From Bacteroidota bacterium (GTDB lineage Bacteria > Bacteroidota > Bacteroidia > Palsa-948), in the NCBI GenBank assembly GCA_004297845.1, contig SCSP01000049.1, forward strand, positions 1 through 37,851: a stretch of 37,851 bases of DNA, given 5' to 3'. Each line of letters begins with the position of its first letter. Positions within the stretch are counted from its first letter, which is position 1. The position numbers and the translations under genes were made by a program. Shown here piece by piece: positions 26,391 to 30,656 of this stretch. The notes under the pieces were generated by a model. It worked only from the letters and a program-made list of their open reading frames with translations. It made no database searches and had not been told where the DNA came from.

Positions 26391-28202
26391 TTACCTCCTG
26401 ATTATCTCGAATTTCTCTCTATCCCCTATGGTTTCTCCAAGTGCAAAGAGCTGCGATGATCTTTCGTCCACACTCAGATATTTGCCATTTGCCGCTTTAA
26501 AGGCTGCGTAATTGCTGTCGAGTTGTTCCAAAGAAAATGTTTCCCAATTCCCGATGTTATTTCTGGAAGCCGTAACTTGGCTCTGCAGGTTCAGTTCAGC
26601 ACAGAAAAACTGACCGTTGGCTGCCCGGACGGCACATTCGTTTTTTTCGAATAACAGCAGCGTGAATGTTTCCCATCCCAATGCAGTATCACGGTTAGCA
26701 ATAACAATATTGTTTGCTGCCTCATCCGCGCAAACATATTTCCCGTTTGCAGCTTTCAACTGTATGGTCTTTCTGCTTACTTCTGTTCTGTTATAAGCTT
26801 GCCAGGCCTTGTTATCAATGCCTGTATTAGCTGAACCTGCCGCTTCGCAATCATTCCCCTTTCCCGCTTCATCGTAATTCGGATAGCTCACCATGTTGTC
26901 GAAGTCTTTCACCTGGGCCATCTTTCCGAATTGTTTAAAGTACAGTTCCTTTGTCATTCCGTCATAGTGGAGCGAATGAATCTCAAACTGGTATATTTGG
27001 AAAATATTCAGCCAGATGAAAAAAACTGCGACTAAATAAAATGGCAGATTAAAATACCATTTCTTCTCCGACAGGAATTTTATGAATGAAGCGAAAGGAA
27101 TTGCCAGCAATCCATAGCTTTCAATGAAACTTCTCTGTCCGTGTGTGCCTCCGTACCACCAGCACCACCAGGAAAAAATAATGTAGATATTAACTGCCAT
27201 AAAAACCAGAATCGGCAATCGGAATTTTTTGAGATCGCCTTTCAGAAAAAATATTCCCGCCAATGCAAATGCCATCATTGGCGTGTAAACTAACCAGCCT
27301 TTCCTCCAACTGAACAGGCCTTCCAGTATCCGGGGATGGGAAAAGAAAAATCCCTCATCACCGTAGGGATAAGCCAGAAAATGCCCGGTGGCTGTTTTCC
27401 AGTAAATGAATTGAGGAATCCACACCAAAAAAACGCAGAAGGAGATCAGGATCATCAGCAGATATTTTTTTAAAAAAAAACGAATGCGTTCCTTCAGACC
27501 GGAAAAAGTGGTTATCCCGTAAAAGATAAAAAACAGTACGATCACTGCATTGGTAGGCCGTATCAGGGAGATAATACCCAGGAGGAATCCGATGGCGAGT
27601 GTATTCAGGAAGGCAGGGCTTTCATGCCACTTCATGGTGCAATAAATAAATAGGCAGAAAACACAAAAACTGTAAATATGGCTCATAGGCGCTGAATGCG
27701 AAGCATAACAAAGCATGTTGGTTCCCAGTCCGATCAGCAGAATGACAACTGCAATAATTCTATCGGAGAAATCAAGTTTCGTCAGGAACTTTCGCAGGAA
27801 GTCCAATCCGATAATGAGATAGAAAATGGTGCTGAGTAAAAGAAATATTTTGTAGGGTTCTGAGAATCCGTCTTCCGGATAATCCGTAACAGAAGCGTAT
27901 GCGTGTGCGGCAAAAAAGAAGGGAGCATAAAAGAAAGCGGTGCCCATGGACATCTTGATGACCTTTCTGCCGTCTTCCGTAAAAACCGGCCAGAACAAAA
28001 ACCGGTTATCACCCAGATGATAATCGCTCTTCTCGAATTTTATGTCATCATAAATAAAATAGGCGGGCAGATATTCGTAGTAGGAATGTACATCCCATTC
28101 GATCACGCGGTCTTCCTTTTCCCAGTTCTTGAGGCTGAAATCAATCAACAGGCAGACAAAAGCAACCACAGAGATTGCGAGAGTGGAGAAAGAGAGCTTC
28201 AT
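26391..28202 (-). CDS. Multi-pass membrane protein fused to a C-terminal fascin-like beta-trefoil
   Basis: A protein of about 603 residues. The N-terminal 440 residues carry around ten membrane helices. An early loop WDVHSYYEYLPAYFIYDD resembles GT-C type membrane glycosyltransferases of Bacteroidota. The last 135 residues (from about 465) form a soluble beta-trefoil with three internal repeats, each starting with a KAANGKY-like motif: QLKAANGKYVCADE, AVRAANGQFFCAEL, AFKAANGKYLSVDE. This matches fascin-like actin-crosslinker/ricin-type trefoils, which bind protein or carbohydrate. A membrane glycosyltransferase with a binding trefoil is an unusual combination. The start could be 28202 or 28214; the latter ATG directly touches the flanking CACAGATT repeat. 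The gene has no promoter of its own outside that cassette. Confidence 0.75.
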   Translation of the reverse strand: MKLSFSTLAISVVAFVCLLIDFSLKNWEKEDRVIEWDVHSYYEYLPAYFIYDDIKFEKSDYHLGDNRFLFWPVFTEDGRKVIKMSMGTAFFYAPFFFAAHAYASVTDYPEDGFSEPYKIFLLLSTIFYLIIGLDFLRKFLTKLDFSDRIIAVVILLIGLGTNMLCYASHSAPMSHIYSFCVFCLFIYCTMKWHESPAFLNTLAIGFLLGIISLIRPTNAVIVLFFIFYGITTFSGLKERIRFFLKKYLLMILISFCVFLVWIPQFIYWKTATGHFLAYPYGDEGFFFSHPRILEGLFSWRKGWLVYTPMMAFALAGIFFLKGDLKKFRLPILVFMAVNIYIIFSWWCWWYGGTHGQRSFIESYGLLAIPFASFIKFLSEKKWYFNLPFYLVAVFFIWLNIFQIYQFEIHSLHYDGMTKELYFKQFGKMAQVKDFDNMVSYPNYDEAGKGNDCEAAGSANTGIDNKAWQAYNRTEVSRKTIQLKAANGKYVCADEAANNIVIANRDTALGWETFTLLLFEKNECAVRAANGQFFCAELNLQSQVTASRNNIGNWETFSLEQLDSNYAAFKAANGKYLSVDERSSQLFALGETIGDREKFEIIRR

Positions 28203-28214
28203 AGGGAAAGTCAT

Positions 28215-28336
28215 GCCACAGATTCACAGATTATTTTAAGCAGTCAATTAATACAAACAGCAAATTAAACAGATTAATGTTATGGCCGGCAAGCCGGCTG
28301 AATTTGGTTGTTTGTATTAATCTGTGAATCTGTGGC
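28215..28336. repeat. Left CACAGATT inverted-repeat element
   Basis: The outer 19-nt arms (28215-28233 and 28318-28336) are perfect reverse complements built from the octamer CACAGATT twice. A second inverted pair ATTAATACAAACA (28247-28259)/TGTTTGTATTAAT (28309-28321) and a small GCCGG-caag-CCGGC hairpin (28285-28298) lie inside. Confidence 0.85.
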
Positions 28337-28356
28337 GGTTAATGGCTGTTAAATAA

Positions 28357-28743
28357 TTATAAAATAACTCTTTTTGATACTAGCGAGTTCTCTCCAAAAT
28401 TGATGATTAATCCTAAAGGACACTTGGAAATTCCTAAATAATTAATTACCCAACTATAATGCTCATCCACTATTCCTTTCTGGGATTTTACTTCCAGTAT
28501 AATTTTGTCGAATACTACAAAATCTGCAAAAAAATGATGAGACAGAATTTTTCCTTTATAGTCCACTTCGTACTTTTTTTCACGTGTATAGGGGATGTGC
28601 TTAAGTTGAAATTCGTATTCGATCGCGTCTTTATAAACAATTTCCGATAGGCCTTTTCCTAAAATGCGGTGAACTTCCATGCATATTCCAATGATCTGAT
28701 AACTTTCTTTTTGTAATGGATATTCCTTTTCTGAATATTGCAT
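28357..28743 (-). CDS. GxxExxY protein, PD-(D/E)xK nuclease-like
   Basis: A 128-residue protein of the GxxExxY family (known to me as PDDEXK_3). The defining motif GLSEIVY is at residues 31-37. The nuclease-fold core is visible: ADFVVFD (Asp74) followed by ILEVKSQ (Glu84, Lys86), the D...ExK arrangement. NYLGISKCPLGLIINFG is the usual C-terminal signature. The biochemical role of this family is not established. The ATG at 28743 is chosen; an in-frame GTG six codons earlier lies inside the flanking repeat. The gene sits between two CACAGATT inverted-repeat elements, and is codirectional with the ABC gene upstream and the membrane protein gene downstream. A role linked to the repeats, such as recognising or processing hairpins, is inference. 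Confidence 0.88.
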   Translation of the reverse strand: MQYSEKEYPLQKESYQIIGICMEVHRILGKGLSEIVYKDAIEYEFQLKHIPYTREKKYEVDYKGKILSHHFFADFVVFDKIILEVKSQKGIVDEHYSWVINYLGISKCPLGLIINFGENSLVSKRVIL

Positions 28744-28756
28744 GACTAAAAATAAC

Positions 28757-28850
28757 GCCACAAATTTACAGATTAGCAGCCAGAGAAAATCTGTGTAATA
28801 GTGGTTGGCTGTTAATTGGGCTATTTGTGTTCAATCTGTGAATCTGTGGC
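28757..28850. repeat. Right CACAGATT inverted-repeat element
   Basis: The arms at 28757-28775 and 28832-28850 are reverse complements apart from a few positions. They are near-copies of the arms of the left element. Both elements also contain TGGCTGTTAA (28806-28815 here, 28343-28352 just beyond the left arms). This one also lies just after the ABC gene and could end its message. Confidence 0.8.
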
Positions 28851-28856
28851 AGTCTC

Positions 28857-30656
28857 TTATTGTGCTACATTTTCTTTTGTCTCGATCCTTGTCTTAATAC
28901 CATCCAGCTCCCCCTTAGGAATGGCGCTGATAAGTTTTTGAGTGTATCCGGTCTGGGGATTGTTATAAATAGAATCGGCCTCTCCCATTTCCACAATTTT
29001 TCCTCCCTGCATCACGATCATGCGGTCACTCATGAACTTTACAACGGAAAGATCGTGTGATATAAAAATATAGGTAAACTTGAATTCCTTTTGCAGATGC
29101 CTCAGCAGGTTGAGTACCTGCGCCTGTATAGATACATCCAGTGCGGAAACCGATTCATCGCAGATGATAAACTCGGGATTAAGCGCGAGCGCACGGGCAA
29201 TGCAGATGCGCTGCCTTTGACCTCCGGAAAATTCATGGGGATAACGGTAGAAATGTTCTTCTGCCATGTTTACTTTATGAAGCAACTCAATGGCTTTATC
29301 TTTCCTGAACTTGTCGTTTTCGTGCAATTTGTGAACGCGCATAGGTTCCATCAAAGCTTCTCCCACCGTGATACGCGGGTTAAGTGAAGAGTACGGATCC
29401 TGAAAAATTATCTGCATGTTCTTACGCAACGGGCGCATCTCACCTGCTGAAAGATTGCGGATGTTTGTTCCTTTGTAAATTATTTCACCGCCTGTAGGCT
29501 CTATCAGTCTGAGTATGGTTCTTCCCAGCGTAGTCTTGCCGCAACCCGACTCTCCCACCAGTCCCAGGGTTTCTCCGGGGTAAACATCAAACGAAACATC
29601 ATCCACTGCTTTATTAAAATGTTTTGAACTGCCGAACAATCCGGTGTGAATGGGGAAATATGTTTTGAGGTTCCTTACACTTAAGAGGGGTCCTGTGCTG
29701 TAAATTTCTTTATGCCTTACTTCCCGTTCTTTGGGAGATACGATCAGTTTCGTTGTTATCTGCTCAATGGTATACGGGTTTTGAGTAAGTGTTCCGTCTT
29801 CGCGGGTAATCATAAAATCGGAGATCGTAGGGAGCCAATGATAACGCTTGCTCAGCGGAGGGCGGCAGGCAAGCAGGCCTTTTGTGTAGGGATGCTGTGG
29901 ATTAGCAAATATTTTCCATGCGCTGCCCTCTTCCACAATTTTTCCTTTATACATCACGATCACGCGGTCGGCCAGCTCAGCTATAACGCCCAGATCATGG
30001 GTGATAAAAACAATAGACATTCCTCTTTCTCTCTGAAGTTTTTGCAGCAGCTTCAGAATGGTGTCCTGCACAGTAACATCCAATGCGGTAGTGGGTTCGT
30101 CCGCAATCAAAATAGAAGGATTGCAAGAGATTGCCATCGCTATCATTACGCGCTGTCTTTGTCCGCCCGAAAGTTGGTGCGGAAAAGTATCCATCATCTG
30201 CTCCGGGCGGGGCAGTTGCACTTCTTTGAAAAGCTCTACTGTTTTCTGCTTAGCCGATTTAGGGGTACATTTCTGATGAAGCAGAATGGCTTCCATCACC
30301 TGATCTCCGCAGGCATAGACCGGATTCAGCGAGGTCATGGGCTCCTGGAAGATCATGGCAATGTCATTTCCGCGAAAAAGGCGTATCTCGTCTTCGCTGA
30401 GTTTCAGCAGGTCTACCTGACCGAATTTTTTACTGTGGTAAATGATCTCCCCATCCGATATCCTGCCTGGAGGGTTTTTCACCAGGCGCATGATGGAAAG
30501 GGAGGTTACGGATTTTCCGGTGCCGGATTCTCCCACAATACCTAATGTCTCGCCCTTGTGTAAATTGAAACTGATTCCGTTCACCGCGCGGATGGTTTCC
30601 TCTTCGGTTCGGAATTCAGTAATCAGATTTTTTACTTCGAGGAGCCGTGGACCCAT
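28857..30656 (-). CDS. Fused two-domain ABC transporter ATP-binding protein, di/oligopeptide type
   Basis: A 599-residue protein joining two ABC ATPases of the DppD/DppF (OppD/OppF) type, which power a peptide-family importer at the inner membrane. Domain 1 has Walker A GESGTGKS (42-49), signature LSGGQRQR (about 164-171) and Walker [12 protein letters not shown]. Domain 2 has Walker [10 protein letters not shown] (about 364-372), signature FSGGQRQR and Walker [13 protein letters not shown], where the usual EPVSALD reads ESVSALD. The linker [16 protein letters not shown] in the first half is the oligopeptide-family tail. No permease or binding protein lies in the window, so the membrane partner must be elsewhere. 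The ATG at 30656 gives the conventional start ([11 protein letters not shown]). Confidence 0.92.

Follow-up and report, generated by a model that had tools for sequence, protein, structure and literature searches.

A GxxExxY nuclease gene between inverted arms of tandem words, probably one of a family of mobile cassettes that move without a transposase

Overall architecture of the cassette

The window, by which we mean the whole stretch of 37,851 nucleotides analyzed here, contains a gap (28215-28856) between a membrane-protein gene and an ABC transporter gene, both on the minus strand. Within this gap, one GxxExxY (PF13366/TIGR04256) gene lies between two hairpins with inverted outer arms. 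The locus is composed of the following features:

28215-28850, minus strand: whole cassette (hairpin, GxxExxY gene, hairpin)
28357-28743, minus strand: GxxExxY gene for a Cas4/RecB-like PD-(D/E)XK nuclease of 128 aa, with D74, E84 and K86
28357-28359, minus strand: stop codon of the GxxExxY gene
28833-28851, minus strand: left arm of 19 bp, made of CCACAGATT-CACAGATT words, upstream of the GxxExxY gene
28214-28232, plus strand: right arm, downstream of the GxxExxY gene, a perfect inverted copy of the left arm
28757-28850, no strand assigned: upstream hairpin of the gene-less type, 94 bp, with the left arm at its end
28215-28336, no strand assigned: downstream hairpin of the gene-less type, 122 bp, with the right arm at its end
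28857-30656, minus strand: upstream host gene, a double ABC transporter ATPase, co-oriented with the cassette gene
26391-28214, minus strand: downstream host gene, a 607-aa membrane protein, co-oriented with the cassette gene

The unit directly adjoins the membrane-protein start codon at one end and stops 6 bp short of the ABC transporter stop codon at the other. The right arm reads TGCCACAGATTCACAGATT and the left arm is its inverse, with 600 nt between them; the initial annotation had given the arms one difference, but 19 of 19 positions are complementary. Its description of a single gene boxed by two hairpin-like elements was correct, as each side forms a hairpin. When folded as single-stranded DNA, both hairpins were better than their shuffles, the downstream one by far: positions 28214-28338 gave -36.2 kcal/mol (z -10.1, with 0 of 200 shuffles as good) and positions 28755-28853 gave -14.1 kcal/mol (z -2.5, with 4 of 200 as good). 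The GxxExxY gene starts at an ATG; the mechanical open reading frame begins at a GTG at 28761. GxxExxY was the only ORF inside the cassette, where a Pfam search revealed no transposase domain and a PHROGs search nothing useful.

Family, fold and conserved residues of the GxxExxY protein

The window protein matched both TIGR04256 (4e-36, 123.8 bits; curated cut-off 35) and PF13366 (5e-32, 111.3 bits; curated cut-off 22). As the initial annotation had stated, Asp74, Glu84 and Lys86 of the nuclease core are present, and together with G29 and E34 they are invariant in a set of 45 relatives with identity to the window protein down to 24%, which points to an active GxxExxY nuclease that is probably under selection. 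The conserved D...ExK core and the alpha-beta fold of the AlphaFold (AF2) model, which had a pLDDT of 95.2, are those of the PD-(D/E)XK superfamily. The best PDB match of this model was Cas4 SSO0001 (PDB 4ic1; E 2e-5, TM 0.58), followed by LHK-Exo, MGME1 and RecE, all of which are enzymes working on DNA ends or single strands. The likeness to Cas4, the closest solved fold, is at the fold level only (17% identity), and unlike Cas4 the cassette protein is a stand-alone protein of 128 aa without a Cas neighbourhood. We found no solved structure related by sequence to the window protein, and the PADLOC anti-phage defence models gave no match to it up to E 0.1. In the literature, GxxExxY receives a passing mention next to a gene annotated as cas4 by a different tool.

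Arms and words of other GxxExxY genes

The source genome (G000, 3.47 Mb) contains six PF13366 genes, and all six are tight units with inverted arms of short tandem words. The words differ by locus: CGCTAAGACGCGAAGGCGCAAAG at L001, CACTAAGACACACTAAG at L002, CACAGATT in the window and TACGAA words at L004, L005 and L006. The same anatomy was found for about 50 GxxExxY genes in the seven genomes of the genus, and GxxExxY cassettes lie between genes in about half of the sampled Bacteroidota genomes. For a quantitative comparison, we used 210 GxxExxY genes, which came from the genus, 148 genomes of the phylum and named genome contigs, and scored arms as present when the inverted match between the 160-bp flanks reached a score of at least 12. 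Inverted arms were present at 146 of the 210 genes (70%), compared with 6 of 293 other ORFs of the same loci (2%), and the two sets of arm scores differed strongly (Mann-Whitney p = 4e-55). The rate was 5.8% when flanks of different loci were paired and 1% in shuffles. The other 64 genes fell under the strict score, though words were still visible in many of those inspected by eye.

In each arm, a word of 7-9 bp with the general form YRCNRAK, such as CACAGATT, occurs two or three times in tandem; the spacing of the word repeats peaks at 8, 9 and 10 bp, close to one DNA turn. A typical cassette measures about 0.45-0.6 kb, and its stop codon often lies in or adjoins the right arm. Such arms on other genes, which the cassette idea of the initial annotation implied, were indeed found: relatives 65-88% identical to the window protein have GCCACAGATT(n)CACAGATT or close CGCAGATT arms, and related words occur in more distant relatives. 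These 65-88% relatives include copies in Methylococcales metagenome assemblies, with a much higher flanking GC (0.43-0.54 versus 0.30-0.32) and often with the GxxExxY stop codon inside the right arm (TAATCTGTGAATCTGTGGC); some of the cross-phylum cases, which are from metagenome assemblies, may be binning errors. A count of CACAGATTNCACAGATT across the 148 genomes, in which 7 of 9 word-bearing genomes had the gene, hardly separated genomes with the gene from those without it and was uninformative because the word differs between clades.

Cassettes between co-oriented gene pairs pointed in the same direction as the genes in 153 of 158 cases and in the opposite direction in 5; some of these loci are orthologous, so that the effective number is smaller, although the bias is strong. 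A further 12 cassettes lay between convergent genes and 16 between divergent genes. We infer that the co-orientation reflects selection for read-through expression from the host operon.

Linkage between word and nuclease

Word classes (GAT, AAT, AAG or GAG) were set by the three final letters of the YRCNRAK form. In 115 of 169 cases, the class was shared with the nearest non-orthologous protein neighbour, compared with 45 expected (maximum of 62 in 500 permutations), and class agreement dropped from 96% to about 11% with rising protein distance. On the protein tree we counted 35 word-class changes versus a shuffled mean of 98 (minimum 88); without the one heavily sampled site, the values were 34 and 88. 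As judged from these comparisons, the word goes with the nuclease clade and not with the site.

The miaB-sigma54 gap revealed the same relation within a single place. We searched for this gap in 150 genomes from the genus to which G031 belongs and read 72 loci; as the site also occurs in named Flavobacterium loci, we took the genus to be Flavobacterium. These comprised 23 empty gaps (<40 bp), 14 short hairpins or remnants, 24 GxxExxY cassettes with readable arms and 11 other contents, one of which also matches GxxExxY. The proteins of the 24 cassettes form three clades, with identities of 63-70% between clades and about 83-86% within them, and every clade has a word of its own. On the tree of the flanks, the three clades, empty sites and hairpins are intermingled (L332/L330 and L337/L315 are examples of GAA/GAT sister pairs), so that the word goes with the nuclease rather than with the place. 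The left and right arms of one locus matched each other more closely than did arms of different loci (18.4 versus 12.9; 0 of 20,000 permutations as good); inside one word class, this within-locus advantage was marginal (p 0.05). Turnover at this site could occur via homologous exchange between species.

Other material was also present in the miaB-sigma54 gap. YcxB-like ORFs lie within TTTCAGGTTTCAAG-word repeats at L320, L321, L328, L329 and L339, and such repeats are without any gene at L322, L333 and L340. One Flavobacterium gap without a cassette (L303) contains AATTAGCC-TCT-GGCCAAAA, with the outermost GCC and GGC kept, a possible scar of a lost element.

Turnover at the sites of the source genome

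At the position of the window cassette, the arms are not fixed among relatives, in agreement with the cassette idea. The corresponding site in G005 holds a gene-less CACAGATT element of 140 bp. In G003 (L105, G003:C63), the site is without CACAGATT arms and holds an insertion with a nucleotidyltransferase gene (PF01909) and a further ORF pair, in which the ABC transporter gene 3' end is partly duplicated beside the membrane-protein gene.

Similar changes were found at the other sites. The hisS-HAL gap has a cassette in G000 and is empty (0-2 bp) in G001, G003 and G004; in G002 (L089, G002:C57), we observed a 97-bp CGTCATTGCGAG...CTCGCAATGACG hairpin. An empty site was also seen in relatives for SDR-amidohydrolase. 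Between rid and acd, G000 has GxxExxY in TACGAAT arms, the gap in G001 is empty, and G006 (L097, G006:C83) has an HNH-like ORF between matching TACGAAT arms. This HNH-like ORF was considered as a general exchange of cargo and rejected as a single case, as its only homolog among the 148 genomes is without such arms. The panB-RluA gap contains GxxExxY in G000, gene-less hairpins in G004, G005 and G006, and 5 bp in G002. In G003 (L085, G003:C100), the same gap contains a DUF559 (PF04480, Vsr-like) gene in GGGAGAGG-type inverted arms, and the gene-less hairpin in G004 (L086, G004:C154) is of the same kind as these arms. DUF559 with GGGAGAGG arms is possibly a parallel nuclease-repeat system. No target-site duplication was visible in the pairs of occupied and empty sites, which are from diverged species, and the cassette boundaries rest on comparison of these diverged species.

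Gene-less copies as internal-deletion derivatives

Among the copies read, one full 427-bp cassette was found in each of the genomes that contain L136, L137 and L139, which are labelled Methylococcaceae, Methylococcales and Methylobacter. Elsewhere in these genomes we found shorter copies of 76, 77, 78, 90 and 91 bp and a group of about 48 bp. The short copies retain both arms and the first codons of the nuclease gene (ATGAAATATTCAGAAAAGGAATAT...), several also retain its last codons (...GTCATTTTATAA), and the deletion endpoints vary between copies at different places. In 5 of 5 tested cases, the short copies aligned to the full cassette better than 200 interior shuffles did. MITEs likewise retain parts of their parent transposon, and the internally deleted copies with both ends kept (L393, L394, L395, L402, L416 and the 48-bp copies) have the makeup of such non-autonomous elements. 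Gene-less hairpins in at least three genomes are internal-deletion (MITE-like) derivatives, and their retention of both arms suggests that the arms are sufficient in cis. These multi-copy derivatives strongly support the earlier proposal of a transposase-free selfish or repeat-linked unit.

In the Methylococcales-labelled genomes, the repeated unit exceeds the inner arms, and an outer GTAACTACTCAG...CTGAGTAGTTAC frame, which also encloses CGCTGATGACGC-word elements, moves along with it; another activity may therefore mobilise the unit there. Additionally, an outer frame GTAACTACTCAGCAG...CTGAGTAGTTAC was observed around GxxExxY elements of two word families in G302-G304 (L375, L376, L383, L388, L389 and others).

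Comparison with known systems

REP/REPIN sequences with their RAYT (TnpA-REP) genes resemble the cassette in several ways: short palindromic repeats are dispersed between genes, inverted copies of them flank a small gene, the repeat type is tied to the gene clade, and gene-less copies are more numerous than the gene (PMC3116915, PMC2817692, PMC8266576). Inverted palindromic repeats around the gene and dispersed solo copies were both found here. However, RAYTs are HUH Y1 transposase relatives, whereas the cassette gene encodes a PD-(D/E)XK (Cas4-like) nuclease, and the HUH Y1 (TnpA-REP) gene of a REP/RAYT system is absent beside the repeats. The cassette arms also differ in being tandem-word arrays, and the cassette gene itself is gained and lost at sites and has given rise to deletion derivatives.

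Insertion sequences and MITEs share with the cassette terminal inverted repeats, one gene, internal-deletion derivatives and empty sites. In contrast to insertion sequences, the cassette has no DDE, HUH, serine or tyrosine recombinase, shows no visible target duplication in the diverged species compared, and lies in operon gaps in one orientation; no DDE/DEDD transposase gene, as in a DDE insertion sequence, was found in the unit. The 23S rRNA intervening sequence with an S23 four-helix-bundle ORF, as in the Coxiella IVS, likewise places a small selfish ORF (about 0.4 kb) in a stem formed by inverted ends, within a transcribed host unit (PMC4990558). Unlike the IVS, the cassette lies outside rRNA, its gene is a nuclease, and its arms are word arrays with clade-specific words. 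REP/RAYT systems, insertion sequences with MITEs, and the IVS therefore have their anatomy in common with the cassette, but not their enzyme. Homing endonuclease genes, which include PD-(D/E)XK, HNH and Vsr-like kinds, are similar in their sole small nuclease cargo, their occupied and empty alleles and their fast gain and loss; they differ from the cassette, which has inverted word arms, dispersed gene-less copies and many unrelated insertion sites.

Proposed mechanism and alternatives

We consider it probable that the window cassette belongs to a widespread family of mobile cassettes whose sole gene is a Cas4/RecB-like GxxExxY nuclease, and that this nuclease starts movement at the arms without a transposase. 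Sequence comparison shows that gene and arms travel as one unit that is mobile in evolution, with sites gained, lost and exchanged. We infer from the gene-word linkage, the invariant catalytic residues and the predicted Cas4-like fold that the nuclease acts on the arms or hairpins. The cassette settles in short gaps between co-directional genes, where its gene could be expressed by read-through from the host operon. The nuclease would recognise its own arm words, probably as a hairpin or in single-stranded form during replication, with a duplex also considered, and would nick or cut at the element ends to initiate movement. Host repair or replication would do the joining, and full copies as well as gene-less derivatives would move in trans, without a transposase.

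An unlikely but substantial alternative is that the cassettes are mobile and their arms are moved in trans by another enzyme, such as an unseen transposase on REP-like repeats, or by homologous recombination, the nuclease being a passenger with, for example, a homing-like or addictive function. The outer repeat frame common to two word families in the Methylococcales-labelled genomes fits this explanation, as do the rapid allele exchange at miaB-sigma54 and the HNH-like, DUF559, nucleotidyltransferase and YcxB-like genes in the same gaps. The HNH-like ORF in G006 even occupies the same TACGAAT arms as a GxxExxY gene in G000, although this case is single and the one homolog found is without such arms. 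Against this explanation, the word changes with the clade of the nuclease rather than with the site, a pattern that a general mobiliser would not produce.

Less likely again is that the arms act as RNA: as in 23S rRNA intervening sequences, RNase III-type processing of their paired stems would insulate the insert from the operon transcript or release it, and the nuclease would act on RNA or be unrelated. Such a role would agree with the extreme co-orientation with host operons (153 to 5), with arms that remain mutually complementary as the word drifts, and with stop codons often in or beside the right arm. A stem, however, needs no tandem words at 8-10 bp spacing, the deletion derivatives disperse as DNA, an Rfam search of the region gave no family match, and the fold is nearest to DNA nucleases. 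That ordinary inverted repeats or terminators flank a small gene by chance is highly improbable: single intergenic hairpins are common, but arms at 70% versus 2% of control genes, the word-protein linkage, the empty sites and the deletion derivatives already contradict this explanation.

Returning to movement started by the nuclease, a broader reading, which we hold tentatively and at slightly less than even probability, is that GxxExxY represents a new class of mobilising enzyme. As a Cas4-like nuclease, it would mobilise in trans both the tandem-word hairpins at its own ends and their gene-less derivatives, with no transposase or recombinase, and the word specificity would be encoded by the nuclease and diversify with it. 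The DUF559 and HNH small nuclease families may be parallel systems with their own words. The family of mobile cassettes is apparently undescribed: in the full-text literature searched, which most subscription journals lie outside, we found no description of it, and the tested repeat words did not occur; earlier notice of the repeats is possible. If correct, the proposal would explain many intergenic repeats that are so far unexplained (CACAGATT, CACGAATT, CGCAAAG, CACTAAG, TACGAAT and similar words), give a testable role to a family of unknown function, and add a new kind of mobile DNA whose sole gene is a Cas4-type nuclease. The word-protein linkage would also provide natural enzyme-target pairs from which to learn how a nuclease of 128 aa reads DNA.

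Further repeats in the source genome

Six complete CACAGATT-type hairpins were found in G000 (L008, L010, L022, L026, L028 and L031), and their origin from the window gene is a conjecture. A broad scan of this genome for CACAGATT gave 38 matches, which were not used as a count, as they are partly a distinct, near-identical ACAGATAACAGATT repeat. This multi-copy repeat, with the words ACAGATAACAGATT...AATCTGTGTTTATCTGTTATCTGT, is separate from the CACAGATT cassettes and breaks the assembly; its loci (L012, L014, L016, L019, L020, L021, L024, L027 and L034) are mostly at contig ends.
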